Positions 52,554-60,041 of a DNA stretch of 64,000 nucleotides are shown piece after piece. The position numbers were made by a program, and so were the translations under genes. The notes under the pieces were generated by a model. That model was not told where the DNA came from. It ran no database searches and saw nothing but the letters and a program-made list of their open reading frames with translations. Where the stretch lies: positions 62,001 to 126,000 of the forward strand of contig NZ_JARGES010000043.1 in the NCBI RefSeq assembly GCF_029210365.1. The letters run 5' to 3'. This DNA is from Mesorhizobium sp. YIM 152430 (GTDB taxonomy: Bacteria; Pseudomonadota; Alphaproteobacteria; Rhizobiales; Rhizobiaceae). The first letter of the stretch is position 1. Every line of letters starts with the position of its first letter.

Positions 52554-52982
52554 ATGGCCTACGATCCCGACATTCCGCCGATTCAGGTTCACCTGTGCGT
52601 CAGGGGCGGGAAGGCGGCCGTCGCCTGGTATGAGACCGCCTTCGCGGCGGTCGAGACCTACGAACAGATGGCCGAGGACGAGGCGCGCATCCTGCACGCC
52701 AACCTCGCTCTTTTCGACTCGGAAATCATGCTGCATGACGAGTTCCCCGAATTTGGCGGCGACGTGATGGGGCCGGACACGCGCGGCGGCGCCAGCATGA
52801 CCGTTTCGGTCAATCTGGCGACGCCGGAAAAGGTGGACGCCGCCTTCGCAAGGGCCGTGGAGGCCGGGGCGGATGTCGTGATGAAGCCTGCCGACGTCTT
52901 CTGGGGCGCGCGCTACGCCAAGCTACGCGATCCATTCGGCCATGTCTGGGCGTTCAACGCGCCTTTGGGGAGTGGGAGATGA
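52554..52982 (+). CDS. VOC family protein (glyoxalase/PhnB-like)
   Basis: A 142-residue two-repeat betaalphabetabetabeta protein. IQVHLCVRGGKAAVAWYETAF, the segment AEDEARILHANLALFDSEIMLHDEFPEFGGDVMGP and DPFGHVWAFNAP match PhnB-type VOC proteins. These bind metals or small molecules and include glyoxalases and resistance proteins; no substrate can be assigned. It lies 24 bases after sucB, and its stop overlaps the SDR start (ATGA), so it is inside the TCA operon. Confidence 0.85.
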   Translation: MAYDPDIPPIQVHLCVRGGKAAVAWYETAFAAVETYEQMAEDEARILHANLALFDSEIMLHDEFPEFGGDVMGPDTRGGASMTVSVNLATPEKVDAAFARAVEAGADVVMKPADVFWGARYAKLRDPFGHVWAFNAPLGSGR

Positions 52983-53725
52983 CCCGCGGCATCCTCGTCA
53001 TCACCGGCGCCTCGCGCGGCATCGGCGCGGCCACCGCCCGGCTTGCCGGCGCAGCGGGCTATGACGTCCTCGTCAACTACGTCGCCAACGCGGATGCTGC
53101 CGCCTCCGTCGTCGCCGGCATTCAATCCGCCGGCGGTCGCGCTTTCGCGGTTCAGGCCGACGCATCGACCGAAGCCGGCATCGCAACGATCTTCGCCGCC
53201 GCCGACAGGCGCGGCAAACTCGCGGGCCTCGTCAACAATGCCGGCGTGGTCGACGCCAGGTCGCGCGTCGACGAAATGGACGAGGCGCGGCTGACGCGGA
53301 TGATGCGCACCAACATCGTCGGCCCCATGCTCGCCGCGCGCGAGGCGGTGCGCCGTCTGTCCACGCTTCACGGCGGTCAGGGCGGCCCCATCGTCAACGT
53401 CTCGTCGGTCGCCGCAAAACTCGGCAGCCCGGCCGAATATGTCGACTATGCCGCCTCCAAGGCCGCGATCGACACCTTCACGCTCGGCCTCGCCCGCGAG
53501 GTCGCGACGGAGGGTATTCGCGTCAATGCGGTGCGACCCGGCATTATCGACACCGAAATCCATGCCTCGGGCGGCCAGCCAGACCGCGTTCAGCGGGTCA
53601 GGGGCATGGTCCCCATGCTGCGCGAGGGCAAGGCCGACGAGGTGGCGCACGCCATTCTCTGGCTGTTGTCCGACGAGGCATCCTACACGACAGGCGCGCT
53701 GCTCGACGTCGGCGGCGGGCGCTAG
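52979..53725 (+). CDS. SDR family oxidoreductase (FabG-like)
   Basis: A 248-residue classical short-chain dehydrogenase. TGASRGIG (residues 9-16) is the nucleotide motif, NNAGVVD the structural NAG, and Ser plus YxxxK are in IVNVSSVAAKLGS and YVDYAASKAAID. The C-terminal TGALLDVGGGR is typical. The substrate is unknown. An SDR between sucB and lpd is, as I recall, a recurrent Rhizobiales feature, though its link to the TCA cycle is unexplained. Confidence 0.92.
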   Translation: MTRGILVITGASRGIGAATARLAGAAGYDVLVNYVANADAAASVVAGIQSAGGRAFAVQADASTEAGIATIFAAADRRGKLAGLVNNAGVVDARSRVDEMDEARLTRMMRTNIVGPMLAAREAVRRLSTLHGGQGGPIVNVSSVAAKLGSPAEYVDYAASKAAIDTFTLGLAREVATEGIRVNAVRPGIIDTEIHASGGQPDRVQRVRGMVPMLREGKADEVAHAILWLLSDEASYTTGALLDVGGGR

Positions 53726-55266: not shown

Positions 55267-55671
55267 TCAATCCGCCTTCGGCGCAGGCCCCACCACCGCC
55301 CAGTTGTGGCCGAACGGATCGTTGAACTGGCCGTAGAGATCGCCCCAGAAGGCGACTTCGAGCGGCATCTTCACCTCGCATCCCGCCGCGATCGCGCGGT
55401 CCCAGACGGCACGGGCGTCGTCGGCGATGATGTTCAGCGTCGTGCCCTGCGGCTCGACCCAGGGATAGCCATGTTCCGGCATCGCGTCGGCAATCATCAG
55501 CGTGCCGCCATTGATGACGAGTTCGCAATGCATGATGCGCTTGCCGTCATCCATCATCATGCGCTCGCCCTGCTCTTCGGCGCCGAGCGCGCGCTTGTAG
55601 AATTCGATGGCGGCGACCGCATCCTTCGACATCAGATGCGGCGTCACGCCGGGATAGTTGTAGTCCGACAT
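55267..55671 (-). CDS. VOC family protein, PhnB type
   Basis: A 134-residue VOC protein. VTPHLMSKDAVAAIEFYKRALGAEEQGERMMMDDGKRIMHCELVINGGTLMIAD is the PhnB-like N-terminal half; the C-terminal half ends VAFWGDLYGQFNDPFGHNWAVVG. Its substrate is unknown. A GGAGG ribosome-binding site fixes the start at 55671. It is 16 bases after the DUF1428 gene on the same strand, so the two share the ECF42-type promoter at 56076-56102. PhnB-like proteins are frequent targets of ECF41/42 sigma factors. Confidence 0.88.
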   Translation of the reverse strand: MSDYNYPGVTPHLMSKDAVAAIEFYKRALGAEEQGERMMMDDGKRIMHCELVINGGTLMIADAMPEHGYPWVEPQGTTLNIIADDARAVWDRAIAAGCEVKMPLEVAFWGDLYGQFNDPFGHNWAVVGPAPKAD

Positions 55672-55687
55672 CGATCCGTCCTCCGTG

Positions 55688-56041
55688 TCAGCGCTCGATG
55701 AAGGCTTCGAACCCGCCATAGATGAAGCGCTTGCCGTCAAACTGCATGTTTTCCATCGCAGGCTTCATGCGCGGGTCCTCGAACACCTTCTTCATCACCT
55801 CGTCGCGCCTGGCCTTGTCGGGATAGGTCGCCCAGGCGAAGACCACGATCTCGTCGTCCTTGGCCTGCACGGCGCGCGGGAACGAGGTCAGTTCGCCATA
55901 GGGCACGTCGTCGGCCAGACATTCGACATAGCCGGTCGCGCCATGCTCCAGCCAGACATCTGCCGAAACGCGTGCATGTTTCTTGTAGGTTTCGAGATTG
56001 GCCTTCGGGACGGAAAGCAGGAATCCATCGACATAGCTCAT
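55688..56041 (-). CDS. DUF1428 domain-containing protein
   Basis: A 117-residue dimeric alpha/beta-barrel-like protein of unknown function. MSYVDGFLLSVPKANLETYKKHA at the N-terminus, EIVVFAWATYPDKARRDEVMKKVFEDPRM in the centre and FDGKRFIYGGFEAFIE at the C-terminus are family blocks. The domain covers the whole protein. It is the first gene of a two-gene unit with the VOC protein and carries an ECF42-type promoter 34 bases before its start. Confidence 0.9.
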   Translation of the reverse strand: MSYVDGFLLSVPKANLETYKKHARVSADVWLEHGATGYVECLADDVPYGELTSFPRAVQAKDDEIVVFAWATYPDKARRDEVMKKVFEDPRMKPAMENMQFDGKRFIYGGFEAFIER

Positions 56042-56075
56042 GGGAAGTCTCCTTTTCGGGTTGGTTCGGCACTAT

Positions 56076-56102
56076 GACGAACGGCGGTCGACCGTGCCGA
56101 CA
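56076..56102 (-). promoter_or_regulatory. Candidate ECF42 promoter of DUF1428-VOC
   Basis: On the minus strand TGTCGG (56097-56102), a 17-base spacer and CGTC (56076-56079). The -10 element ends 34 bases before the start codon. Identical elements and spacing precede the SRPBCC and YciI genes. Confidence 0.65.
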
Positions 56103-56194
56103 TCGCGATGGCGAAAAACTTCGCCCATGCCGGGGCAGGCGGTACGGAACCGGGTGGCGACGCAGCGATTGTACAGCCGCGATTGGAGAAATGA

Positions 56195-57808
56195 ATGCGC
56201 GCAAGCGGAAAATTGCTGGCCCTCGGCGCGGCCCTCGTCACGGCCGCCGCCCTGCGCCGCGCATTCAGCTTGCCGCAGCGCGCCCTGCCCGCGCCGGCGC
56301 CGGCGCTCGACCTGTCCGACACGACGCTTGCCCGCATGACGCGCCCGGCGGTCGAGGCCCACCGCGGATTTTCCGGTGTCCATCTGCTCGCCGACGGCTC
56401 GGAAGCCTTCGCCACCCGCATGTCGCTCGCACGCCAGGCCGAAAAGACGCTCGACCTGCAATATTACATCTGGCGCGGCGACCGCACCGGCACCATGCTT
56501 CTGGAAGAGGTGCTCGACGCCGCCGAGCGCGGCGTTCGCGTGCGGCTTCTCCTCGACGACAACGGCATCGACGGGCTCGACCAGGTGCTGTTCGCGCTCG
56601 ACCGGCATCCGCGCGTGGAGGTGCGGCTGTTCAATCCCTTTCCCCTCCGCTGGCCCAAGGTGCTGGGCTACCTCTTCGATTTCCAGCGCCTGAACCGGCG
56701 GATGCACAACAAGAGCTTCACCGTCGACGGACAGGCGACCGTGATCGGCGGCCGCAATATCGGCGACGAATATTTCGGCGTCGCCGACGGTCCGCTCTTC
56801 GCCGATCTCGACGTGCTCGCCATCGGCCCGGTCGTCGGCGAGGTTGCGGCGCAATTCGAGGATTACTGGAATGCCGCGTCATCCTTTCCCGCGCGGCTGC
56901 TTCTGCGCCGGGTCGGGCCGCGTCATCTGCGACGGTTGCGCAGGCGCAGTTCCATCGTCGAGCGCGATCCGACCGCGCGGCGCTTCCTGAAGGCGGTCCG
57001 CGACCTCGAAATCGTGCGCCAGCTCGCCGAGGCGCGACTGCCGATGGAATGGGCGAAGGTGACGCTTCTGCACGACGACCCCGGCAAGGCGCTCGGCCAT
57101 CGCAGGAAGGGCGCGGGCGGCGAGGTGCGGCTTTCCGGTCTGCTTGAAAACGCGATCGGCGCGCCGAAGCGCGAACTCGCCATCATCGCGGGATACTTCG
57201 TGCCCGGAAAGCGCGGCGTCGCCAATCTGCGTGCCTTGCGTGCCCGCGGCGTCAAGGTCTCGATTCTCACCAACGCCTATGAGGCGACGGATGTCGGCGC
57301 GGTCCATGCCGGCTATGCGCCTTATCGGCGGCAATTGCTGCGCGCCGGGGTCCGGCTGTATGAAATGTGCGACAGCTCCCGCCGCGCTCCATCGCGCAAG
57401 GAACGCCGCAAGGGTTCCCGGCTCGGCGTCTCGAGCCGCCTGCGCGGCTCCGGAAGCAGTTCGGCATCTGCCCTTCGCGCCGGGGCGTCGACCCTCCACG
57501 CCAAGACCTTCGCGGTCGACCGCGAGCGGCTGTTCGTCGGCTCGTTCAATTTCGATCCGCGCTCGATCGATCTGAACACGGAGATGGGCATCGTGATCGA
57601 TTCGCCGACGCTGGCCGGCCTCGTCGCCGACGCTTTCGACGACGTGGTGCCGGACAATGCCTATGAGGTGGCGTTGTCCGACCGTCGCGGACTGGTCTGG
57701 AAACGCCCGGACCTGTCGACACCGCTCCGGCGCGAGCCCGGCATGGGGCTGCGCGACCGGCTGGCGATCGGCATCCTGAAGCGTCTGCGCATCGAATGGC
57801 TGTTGTAG
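56195..57808 (+). CDS. Phospholipase D / cardiolipin synthase-like protein
   Basis: A 537-residue protein with an N-terminal hydrophobic segment (LLALGAALVTAAALRRAF), probably an anchor or signal. It has two HKD motifs: HNKSFTVDGQATVIGGRNIGDEYF (His171) and HAKTFAVDRERLFVGSFNFDPRS (His435). This pairing marks the PLD superfamily, which hydrolyses or transfers phosphatidyl groups. The YclP/PssA/Cls type cannot be fixed. It lies on the opposite strand to its ECF42-linked neighbours, lacks their promoter, and converges with the SRPBCC gene. Confidence 0.9.
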   Translation: MRASGKLLALGAALVTAAALRRAFSLPQRALPAPAPALDLSDTTLARMTRPAVEAHRGFSGVHLLADGSEAFATRMSLARQAEKTLDLQYYIWRGDRTGTMLLEEVLDAAERGVRVRLLLDDNGIDGLDQVLFALDRHPRVEVRLFNPFPLRWPKVLGYLFDFQRLNRRMHNKSFTVDGQATVIGGRNIGDEYFGVADGPLFADLDVLAIGPVVGEVAAQFEDYWNAASSFPARLLLRRVGPRHLRRLRRRSSIVERDPTARRFLKAVRDLEIVRQLAEARLPMEWAKVTLLHDDPGKALGHRRKGAGGEVRLSGLLENAIGAPKRELAIIAGYFVPGKRGVANLRALRARGVKVSILTNAYEATDVGAVHAGYAPYRRQLLRAGVRLYEMCDSSRRAPSRKERRKGSRLGVSSRLRGSGSSSASALRAGASTLHAKTFAVDRERLFVGSFNFDPRSIDLNTEMGIVIDSPTLAGLVADAFDDVVPDNAYEVALSDRRGLVWKRPDLSTPLRREPGMGLRDRLAIGILKRLRIEWLL

Positions 57809-57809
57809 G

Positions 57810-58286
57810 TCAGAGTGTTTTGGCGAGCGCCTCGAGCTGGTCGGCGCAAATGCCCCAGCCCTCGTGGAAACCCATCTTCTCATGGGTCTCCTTGTCTTCG
57901 GCCCGCCAATGGCGCGCCCGCGCCGTGTAGCGTGTCCGGCCACCCTCATCGGCCAACGTGACGATGCCGGTGAAGAACGGCTTTTGCGACGGCACCCAGC
58001 CTTGCGTATAGGCATCGGTGAAGACGATCTTCTCGTTCGGCACGATCTCCAGATAGACGCCGTCATTGGGATATTCGTTTCCGTCCGGGTCGCGCATGAC
58101 GATGAAGGACCGCCCGCCCGGACGGACGTCGACCTCGGCCTTCGCAATCGTCCACGGCGCCGGAACGAACCATTTCGGCAGGAGGTCGGCGTCGGTCCAG
58201 CAGCGGAAGAGCTTGTCGCGCGGCGCGGCGAGAAGGCGGGTGAGGACGAGTTCGTGTTCGGTTTCGGCTTTGGGTTCCGGGGTCAT
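57810..58286 (-). CDS. SRPBCC (AHSA1/START-like) family protein
   Basis: A 158-residue ligand-pocket protein. ELVLTRLLAAPRDKLFRCWTDADLLPKWFVPAPWTIAKAEVDVRPGGRSFIVMRDPDGNEYPNDGVYLEIVPNEKIVFTDAY is the AHSA1-type N-terminal half; the C-terminus ends MGFHEGWGICADQLEALAKTL. The ligand is unknown. Such proteins are common ECF42 regulon members. The ATG at 58286 has a GGAGA ribosome-binding site; an upstream frame to 58349 is rejected because it covers the promoter. Confidence 0.9.
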   Translation of the reverse strand: MTPEPKAETEHELVLTRLLAAPRDKLFRCWTDADLLPKWFVPAPWTIAKAEVDVRPGGRSFIVMRDPDGNEYPNDGVYLEIVPNEKIVFTDAYTQGWVPSQKPFFTGIVTLADEGGRTRYTARARHWRAEDKETHEKMGFHEGWGICADQLEALAKTL

Positions 58287-58316
58287 GGCGATCTCCTTCG
58301 TGGTGTCTGGTCCAAG

Positions 58317-58343
58317 GACGTTTCGACGCCGCCGGAACCGACA
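58317..58343 (-). promoter_or_regulatory. Candidate ECF42 promoter of the SRPBCC gene
   Basis: On the minus strand TGTCGG (58338-58343), a 17-base spacer and CGTC (58317-58320), ending 30 bases before the start codon. It also lies between the sigma gene stop (58360) and the SRPBCC start, so it makes SRPBCC a separate unit. Confidence 0.65.
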
Positions 58344-58359
58344 TGGCAAACCGAAAAAA

Positions 58360-59607
58360 CTAGCCGGCCTGCGCCTGCATCCGGTCGAGATGGCTGCGGA
58401 TATGGGCGGCCTCGGCCGGATTGCGCGCGAGCGCGATGGCGCGGTCGAACGCCTCGCGCGCCTCGCGGCAGCGGCCGAGTTCGAGAAGCAGCCCGCCGCG
58501 CAGGCCGTGATAGTTGAAATAGCCCGCCAGCCGGTCGCCGAGCGGCTCGATCAGCTCGAGCGCGGCCTGCGGACCGTCCATCTTCGCCACCGCGACGGCC
58601 CTGTTGAGCGTGACGACCGGCGATGGTTCGATACGCTCCAGTATCCGGTAGAGAAGTTCGATCTCTCGCCAGTCGGTTTCCCCGGCCGTCGTCGCGCGCG
58701 CGTGGAGCGCGGCGATTGCCGCCTGGATCTGGTAGCTTCCGGGCTGGCGGTGCCGGAACGCCTTGTCCACGAGCGCCAGCCCCTCGCCGATCATCTTGGC
58801 GTTCCAGCGCGAACGGTCCTGATCGTCGAGAAGGACGATTCCGCCCGCCCCATCGATTCGCGCGGCGGCACGCGACTGCTGAAGCAGCATCAGCGCCAGC
58901 AGCCCCATGATTTCCGGCTCGGTCGGGAAGATGCGCAGCAGCAGCCGGCCGAGCCGGATCGCTTCCTCGCACAGAACGGACGCCGCTTCGCTCGCGCCCG
59001 GCCGGGAGGAATAACCTTCGTTGAAGACGAGATAGATCATCGCCGCGACCGCGCCGACACGGCTCGACCGCGCGACGGCGTCCGGCGTCTCGAACTGGCG
59101 GCCCGACGCGGCGATCTTCGCCTTGGCGCGGGTGATCCGCTGTTCCATCGCCGCTTCCGAGACGAGGAAGGCGCGCGCGATCTGCGGCACGGTGAGGCCC
59201 GAGACGATGCGCAGCGCCAGCGCCACCTGATGCTCGGCCGGCAGCGCCGGGTCGGAGCACACGAAAAGCAGGCGCAATATGTCGTCGCGATAGTCGCCAT
59301 GGTCGATCCGGTCGGCAAGCGGCGTCTCGACGTCGTCGAGATCGGACAGCACCGGCTCTTCAGGCAGCGCAACGAGGCGCTTGTCGCGCCGCACCGCGTC
59401 GATGCCGACATTGCGCCCGACGAAGATCAGCCACGCGGCCGGATCGCGTGGGGCGCCGTTCTTCGGCCAGTTCTTCAGCGCCCTCAGACACGCCTCCTGA
59501 AACGCCTCTTCCGCGCGGTCGAGGTCGCGGAAATAGCGCAAGAGAGCGCCGACCGCCTGCGGGCGGGCGGCGGATATGAGCGTTTCGAGGGCGCGGGCGT
59601 CGGTCAT
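58360..59607 (-). CDS. ECF42-type sigma factor with a TPR-like C-terminal extension
   Basis: A 415-residue sigma factor. Region 2 is at about residues 15-85 (AVGALLRYFRDLDRAEEAFQEACLRALKNWPKNGAPRDPAAWLIFVGRNVGIDAVRRDK). Region 4 is at about 115-165 (VALALRIVSGLTVPQIARAFLVSEAAMEQRITRAKAKI). A C-terminal extension of about 230 residues, with helical TPR/DUF6596 character, contains LVFNEGYSS, NRAVAVAKMDGPQAALELIE and AFDRAIALARNPAEAAHIRSHLDRM. ECF42 factors have this architecture and have no separate anti-sigma factor. It is coupled to the YciI gene by an ATGA overlap. Confidence 0.9.
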   Translation of the reverse strand: MTDARALETLISAARPQAVGALLRYFRDLDRAEEAFQEACLRALKNWPKNGAPRDPAAWLIFVGRNVGIDAVRRDKRLVALPEEPVLSDLDDVETPLADRIDHGDYRDDILRLLFVCSDPALPAEHQVALALRIVSGLTVPQIARAFLVSEAAMEQRITRAKAKIAASGRQFETPDAVARSSRVGAVAAMIYLVFNEGYSSRPGASEAASVLCEEAIRLGRLLLRIFPTEPEIMGLLALMLLQQSRAAARIDGAGGIVLLDDQDRSRWNAKMIGEGLALVDKAFRHRQPGSYQIQAAIAALHARATTAGETDWREIELLYRILERIEPSPVVTLNRAVAVAKMDGPQAALELIEPLGDRLAGYFNYHGLRGGLLLELGRCREAREAFDRAIALARNPAEAAHIRSHLDRMQAQAG

Positions 59608-59987
59608 GAAGCGTGCATGTCCTTGTCCCGCTCGCGCATGTAGCCGACCGGGCGGATTTCATAGGAGCCGCCGCCGGGATTGGCTTCGGCGAGGTCCTTC
59701 GAGAAGGCGAGCGCCTCATCGAGATTGTCGAAATCGACGAGATAGAAGCCGAGGAACTGTTCCTTGGTCTCGGCGAACGGGCCATCGATGACGAGCGGTT
59801 CGCCGCCAGCCTTGCGCAGCGTCGTGGCCGCCGTCGTCGGCAGCAGCCGCGCGACCGGGCCGAGCCTGCCGGACCGCTCGACCGGCTGGAGCACGGCGTC
59901 GAGGCGCGCCATGACGGCGTCGTCCTCTTCCTTGGTCCACTGGCCGACCGTGTCTTCGTGGTTGTAACAAAGAATGGCGTAGAGCAT
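59604..59987 (-). CDS. YciI/DGPF family protein, ECF42 partner
   Basis: A 127-residue YCII-related protein with the DGPF motif in VIDGPFAETKEQFLGFYLVDFDNLDEALAFSKDLAEANPGGGSYEIRPV. MLYAILCYNHEDTVGQWTKEEDDAVMARLDAV is the N-terminal half. DGPF proteins are the standard genomic partner of ECF42 sigma factors; their chemistry is unknown. It precedes the sigma gene and shares its promoter, so the sigma factor probably controls itself. Confidence 0.9.
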   Translation of the reverse strand: MLYAILCYNHEDTVGQWTKEEDDAVMARLDAVLQPVERSGRLGPVARLLPTTAATTLRKAGGEPLVIDGPFAETKEQFLGFYLVDFDNLDEALAFSKDLAEANPGGGSYEIRPVGYMRERDKDMHAS

Positions 59988-60014
59988 GTCCTGGCCTCGC
60001 GCGCTTGATCAAAA

Positions 60015-60041
60015 GACGAACGACGACAGGCGTAGCCGACA
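60015..60041 (-). promoter_or_regulatory. Candidate ECF42 promoter of the YciI-sigma unit
   Basis: On the minus strand TGTCGG (60036-60041), a 17-base spacer and CGTC (60015-60018), ending 27 bases before the YciI start codon. It sits after the rpsP terminator, so the unit is independent of the ribosomal operon. Confidence 0.68.

Follow-up and report, generated by a model that had tools for sequence, protein, structure and literature searches.

Positions 55267 to 60041 of the window, by which we mean the whole 64,000-nucleotide (nt) stretch of Mesorhizobium sp. YIM 152430 DNA analysed here, hold a gene for an extracytoplasmic function (ECF) sigma factor of the ECF42 type together with genes for small glyoxalase-fold and ligand-binding proteins, and raise the question of whether this factor serves them all through a common promoter, TGTCGG-N17-CGTC, and how far its reach extends. 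Our answer, to which we give a probability of about 0.88, is that the block belongs to a regulon under an ECF42 sigma factor of the RpoE10 type that would act at TGTCGG-N17-CGTCnT promoters, with its C-terminal extension, with or without the neighbouring YCII protein, as sensor and Glu155 as reader of the base pair at −31.

A pattern search of the window returned exactly three matches to TGTCGG-N17-CGTC, all on the minus strand; dinucleotide-shuffled windows (n = 100) held a mean of 0.36 matches, with three or more in 1 of 100. The copies (60015..60041, 58317..58343 and 56076..56102) lie 27, 30 and 34 nt ahead of the ATG codons of a YCII-domain gene, an AHSA1/SRPBCC gene and a DUF1428 gene, bearing out the preliminary description, which had placed them before three units, YCII-sigma, AHSA1 and DUF1428-VOC, and we treat them as the predicted ECF42 promoters of these units. 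The copy ahead of the YCII-sigma unit has a T at the second position after CGTC (+2) and is also found before YCII-sigma in relatives, and base-content counts at conserved sites gave TGTCGG-N17-CGTCnT as the fuller working motif. The genes of these units all lie on the minus strand, and Pfam confirmed the families that had been named for them (YCII/DGPF, SRPBCC, VOC and DUF1428). The YCII-domain gene (59604..59987; PF03795, E = 2.8 × 10−20) overlaps by 4 nt the start of the gene for the 415-residue sigma factor (58360..59607), and the AHSA1/SRPBCC gene occupies 57810..58286 (PF08327, E = 5.2 × 10−33). The DUF1428 gene (55688..56041; PF07237, E = 1.7 × 10−43) is followed after 16 nt by a VOC gene of the glyoxalase fold (55267..55671; PF00903, E = 1.5 × 10−13), whose start at 55671 was picked from the sequence, the open reading frame (ORF) listing offering a longer TTG start.

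Domain content and the YCII neighbour agree with the earlier assignment of the sigma factor to ECF42. Sigma70_r2 (PF04542) and Sigma70_r4_2 (PF08281) exceeded their Pfam cut-offs, as did TIGR02937, giving the sigma2 and sigma4 domains of an ECF factor; the C-terminal extension, which in ECF42 factors spans about 200 residues with TPR-like repeats, matched DUF6596 (E = 1.4 × 10−33), with TPR_2 below its cut-off; and the YCII/DGPF-type gene that adjoins the sigma gene in this class here overlaps its start. An AlphaFold2 model (mean predicted local distance difference test score, pLDDT, 82.5) rendered the C-terminal half as almost all helix, mostly with pLDDT above 80, and a Foldseek search with this model returned mostly TPR proteins as best matches, with ECF sigma factors among them and none at E ≤ 0.001. 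Pfam found no match in the sigma factor to the SnoaL-like C-terminal domain of ECF41, the extension being DUF6596 instead; NF006089 scored 27 bits against a cut-off of 240 and NF007214 24.5 against 271, both far too low; and no anti-sigma family appeared among nine neighbourhood proteins scanned with Pfam. The −35 element had been described as one base off the TGTCGA of ECF42, which is right: the Streptomyces consensus is reportedly TGTCGA with CG(A/T)C, versus TGTCGG and CGTC here. Because TGTCGG is the rule in the clade of ECF42 factors with Glu155 and at the mapped promoters of Sinorhizobium meliloti RpoE10, it does not disqualify the factor from ECF42, and it is a property of that whole clade rather than an oddity of this locus.

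The motif extends well beyond the block. Across the 3.83-Mb genome, TGTCGG-N17-CGTC matches exactly at 18 places and a reversed-pattern control at 4. The scan proposed in the preliminary description, with spacers of N16–18, gave 175 matches (control 17) and was misleading because 157 of them were N16 or N18; N17 was used instead. Six of the 18 exact matches sit 27–44 nt ahead of a gene that again bears the motif in relatives, and, one candidate treated below aside, the other 11 have no convincing gene start behind them, as judged by eye in this genome only. Outside the block, conserved copies precede a Ble-like VOC gene (contig C7, position 309962), a PhnB-type VOC gene (contig C10, position 448782) and a BNR-repeat gene with, by eye, a MoaD-like ORF behind it (contig C7, position 292137). 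The Ble-like VOC and BNR-repeat sites are each exact in five of five genomes of the genus; in six other genomes with a good BNR-repeat homologue, the site carries one mismatch in two and is absent in four. Because of these conserved copies, the regulon is, as judged by the motif, scattered over the genome in at least six units, and with at least three further units elsewhere the block is not the compact, self-contained module first described; the picture is corrected to one of dispersed genes of the VOC, AHSA1 and YCII types.

By itself the N17 pattern turns up in 59 of 61 related genomes, and therefore its presence alone is uninformative; what counts is its location ahead of the right genes. 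We took homologues of AHSA1, DUF1428, PhnB and VOC from the 61 genomes, using 30 rows with a locus per family from longer lists, and searched up to 350 nt upstream of each of the 120. Where the genome encodes a close orthologue of the sigma factor (at least 64% identity), 30 of 45 homologues carried the exact motif (AHSA1, 9 of 12; DUF1428, 10 of 12) and four more carried it with one mismatch. In genomes without a full-length ECF42 match, none of 51 homologues had the exact motif and one had it with one mismatch (Fisher P = 5 × 10−14 between these two classes, whose rows share genomes and ancestry and so are not independent). Genomes with only a diverged ECF42 had none of 24 exact and six with one mismatch, all six TGTCGA; this class includes two genomes (G008 and G023) whose diverged sigma factor has Glu155, and the six TGTCGA sites all come from its other members. 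The T at +2, a base unused in site choice, occurs at 29 of the 30 exact homologue sites versus 10 of 29 matches in the pattern-search loci L102–L130, a set containing at least one genuine YCII promoter, that of L110. Compared across genomes in this way, motif presence depends on sigma presence.

Against this account, 11 of the 45 homologues in orthologue-bearing genomes showed no match even at one mismatch, and an additional candidate unit on contig C37 (position 23271), a small ORF followed by a VOC gene, is unconserved in the genus. We rejected the latter as a conserved member, the motif (at most one mismatch, within 500 nt) being absent from three of three genus homologues and from four more distant ones. 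At this locus (L037, 1528–2907; C37, about 23.3–24.7 kb) the exact motif is followed by a 54-residue DUF1127-like ORF, then the VOC gene and then an ORF for a regulator of the YafY/WYL type, all labelled by eye.

How, then, would these factors come to use TGTCGG where others use TGTCGA? We lean towards the idea that ECF42 promoters come in two dialects set by one residue–base contact, in which Glu155 would read G at −31 (TGTCGG, with CGTCnT) and small residues A (TGTCGA), much as Arg or Lys reads C in ECF41, sigmaE and SigW. The Glu155 codon lies at 59143..59145 on the minus strand, and the residue falls in sigma4 helix 151–167, from where we propose that it reads the final base of the −35 element. 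The 192 ECF42-like sigma genes of at least 270 residues that we assembled came from the related genomes, from 385 genomes belonging to the class and from 80 named contigs; base 6 was read from TGTCGx-N17-CG(A/T)C within 1.1 kb upstream of the sigma gene, a site being found for 127. Base 6 was G in all 69 Glu155 factors with a site; with Ala, Gly, Ser, Thr or Gln at 155, it was A in 54 of 58, T in three and G in one. Column 155 was the most informative of 75 scored columns (100–174), with mutual information over entropy (MI/H) of 0.956 across 104 loci. Among 81 Glu155 loci, 12 had no exact site: three were short of upstream DNA, five had one mismatch near the usual place, all reading G at base 6, and four had none there. 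One factor outside the main Glu155 clade, L298 from Actinomadura, also has Glu155, and no site was found for it. Both kinds of factor, Glu155 and non-Glu, occur together in 15 of 82 genomes, and the seven genomes with promoters for both read G/A in five, G/T in one and G/G in one, the last of which may reflect cross-regulation. If the contact holds, a single residue–base pair would separate two ECF42 circuits in genomes holding both. Among the collected loci, L332 (719–1489, sigma strand) has two tandem YCII-like ORFs ahead of the sigma gene, the first of them preceded by the motif, which stands some 810 nt upstream; in L048 and L049 (genomes G001 and G004), the sigma matches contain one stop codon, possibly only the gene end.

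Structural comparison points the same way. Residue 155, within helix 151–167 of the AlphaFold2 model, aligns by eye with B. subtilis SigW K170 and with the E. coli sigmaE residue that by our count is R171. In solved structures these two residues hydrogen-bond the template-strand guanine at −31, the side-chain density for K170 being described as weak (PMC6713349). We set TGTCGx as −36 to −31, a register taken from the SigW element and the spacer length, which makes base 6 position −31. Lys or Arg would recognise the G paired with C and Glu the C paired with G, and a small residue would accommodate the T paired with A. By this analogy, the G:C pair at −31, where other ECF42 factors have A:T and a small residue, is probably read by Glu155 in the recognition helix of sigma4, presumably through a Glu–cytosine contact. 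ECF41-type factors, taken as the best NF007214 matches (30 loci), have Arg, read by eye, at the Glu155 position in 25 of 25 readable helices, and TGTCAC stands at 24 of the 30 loci, separated from CGTC by 17 nt in 22, so that base 6 is C; Arg with C would fit as a third residue–base state.

The link between residue 155 and base 6 could instead be a by-product of shared descent, with other residues setting specificity, an explanation that we find doubtful. Columns 107, 126, 134 and 131 come close behind column 155 (MI/H 0.82–0.91, 104 loci), and changes on the tree are few: in a quick tree of 189 sigma factors, Glu/other switches three times and one independent pair is scorable. Because there is only one such pair, the covariation within ECF42 amounts to nearly one event and is no proof. 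Further difficulties for a Glu155 code are that no N17 site was found for 65 of the 192 sigma factors, that L276, with Ala155, has TGTCTG-N17-CGTC, a change at base 5 rather than base 6, and that L392 in genome G306, with Gly155, has a TGTCGG promoter. G306 also holds a Glu155 ECF42 factor, which may switch on the Gly155 factor. Against descent as the whole explanation, 155 ranks first of the 75 columns, the residue aligned with it reads the −31 pair in sigmaE and SigW (PMC6713349), ECF41-type factors supply a third pairing, and both pairings coexist within one genome, as G/A in five of the seven genomes above. We regard the Glu155/−31 code as plausible and testable, not proven. Our literature search did not find it stated for ECF42, a weak negative as most subscription papers lay outside the search. 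A general ECF sigma–promoter specificity code is said to have appeared in PNAS in 2020. The accessible portion of the MoClo toolbox paper gave no ECF42 promoter sequence, and ECF42 did not appear in the accessible main text of PMC3817407. The one-residue, one-base prediction is a new, testable lead.

The preliminary description also took the circuit to be self-activating. In favour of this, 69 of the 81 Glu155 sigma loci have the exact N17 motif with G at base 6 in the preceding 1.1 kb, and in 64 of these it sits 380–560 nt upstream of the sigma match, which is the place of the YCII promoter. The unselected T at +2 has an information content of 1.8 bits over 64 unique sites that precede the YCII-sigma operon of Glu155 factors, compared with 0.1 bits over 42 sites of other ECF42 factors. 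From this conservation we predict autoregulation of the YCII-sigma unit. The S. meliloti orthologue speaks against it: overexpression of RpoE10 did not raise SMc01151, the first gene of its own operon, the mapped SMc01151 start overlaps the motif, and the authors conclude that RpoE10 is apparently not self-activating (PMC6180224). The conserved motif ahead of YCII-sigma stands, self-induction did not show in the orthologue, and a conflict is exposed between what conservation leads one to expect and what overexpression revealed. The promoters might accordingly be real and the operon not self-activated, with a constitutive sigma factor to which the other units respond; the S. meliloti results favour this, but we think it unlikely given how regularly the motif and its T recur at the YCII-promoter place. 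The transcription start expected 6–8 nt after CGTC was set slightly short, since the distance from CGTC to the start is 9 nt at one promoter mapped in S. meliloti, counted on the Table 1 sequence (PMC6180224).

That the motif is the binding site of some other regulator is very improbable. In this organism the motif is known from sequence alone, which leaves room for such a regulator, but its presence tracks the sigma factor across genomes, its −35 base tracks a sigma4 residue, it consists of two parts at a constant distance of 17 nt, as suits a sigma promoter, and identical sequences are mapped promoters in S. meliloti (PMC6180224). Chance matches in a GC-rich genome, for which one might cite the 11 exact matches lacking a convincing gene start and the unconserved twelfth among 18, can be dismissed for the three copies here, which fall in a 4.8-kb block, each 27–34 nt before a gene, and are conserved in relatives, with the extra T at +2, while their spacers diverge.

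We therefore return to the RpoE10-type regulon, in which a guess made from one sequence has become a regulon supported across genomes. Sigma factor made from the YCII-sigma operon would direct RNA polymerase to TGTCGG-N17-CGTCnT promoters and so transcribe the units directly; these promoters would drive AHSA1, DUF1428-VOC, two further VOC genes and the BNR-repeat gene with its MoaD-like ORF, which are of small ligand-binding or detoxification type. In other ECF42 members the extension is essential for activity and is proposed to be under the control of a protein partner, with YCII as candidate (PMC8999054). Following that published proposal, no separate anti-sigma factor would be needed, and sensing would probably fall to the TPR-like extension at the C terminus, possibly together with the YCII protein. 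Some compound sensed in this way would switch the sigma factor on, and the small ligand-binding and glyoxalase-fold proteins would then bind or modify it, giving the targets a putative role in detoxification.

One gene inside the block would stand apart from this circuit. A PLD-family gene (56195..57808; PLDc_2 in Pfam) lies between AHSA1 and DUF1428 on the plus strand, where no motif is found, and the view that it is outside the regulon holds up: the AHSA1 and DUF1428 matches, 1,771 nt apart here, are separated by no more than 83 nt in relative G004 and 85 nt in relative G028. Because these matches are near-adjacent there, the PLD gene probably entered the block later; its loss from G004 and G028 is less likely. 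About 1.5 kb below the block ends a further pair, a VOC gene and then an SDR gene (52554–53725, plus strand), without the motif.

Among known systems, ECF41 factors resemble this one in carrying a C-terminal extension in place of an anti-sigma factor and in a 17-nt spacer to CGTC; they differ in having Arg where this factor has Glu155, and a −35 of TGTCAC, with C at base 6. Their extension, unlike the one here, is SnoaL-like (PMC8999054). Streptomyces venezuelae ECF42 and Pseudomonas putida ECF-10, the latter linked to antibiotic and oxidative stress, share the sigma2–sigma4 arrangement, the long TPR extension and the YCII neighbour (PMC8999054). Streptomyces and Pseudomonas ECF42 loci in our collection (L318, L304 and L325) differ from the window in having Ala155 and TGTCGA sites 918–1044 nt upstream of the sigma match. 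The −35 elements of S. venezuelae ECF42 and P. putida ECF-10 are likewise said to be TGTCGA. The closest counterpart is S. meliloti RpoE10, for which Table 1 of PMC6180224 gives three promoters, each TGTCGG, 17 bases and CGTC, preceding SMc01151 (a YCII gene that rpoE10 follows), SMc01149-SMc01148 (a hydrophobic-ligand domain gene, then a glyoxalase-like one) and SMb20475-SMb20474 (a glyoxalase-like gene, then one of unknown function), the last two operons rising at least 2-fold on RpoE10 overexpression. That regulon too combines a YCII-sigma operon with glyoxalase-like and hydrophobic-ligand-binding targets, and is scattered, one target operon lying, by its SMb locus tag, on another replicon (PMC6180224). 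Here, unlike there, DUF1428-VOC and AHSA1 each have a promoter of their own, the regulon gains a PhnB-type VOC unit and a BNR-repeat unit, and a PLD gene lies inside the block. Because the same motif, spacer and gene types are found at the mapped RpoE10 promoters, the window system is a relative of the known RpoE10 system, its motif and gene types not new in kind.

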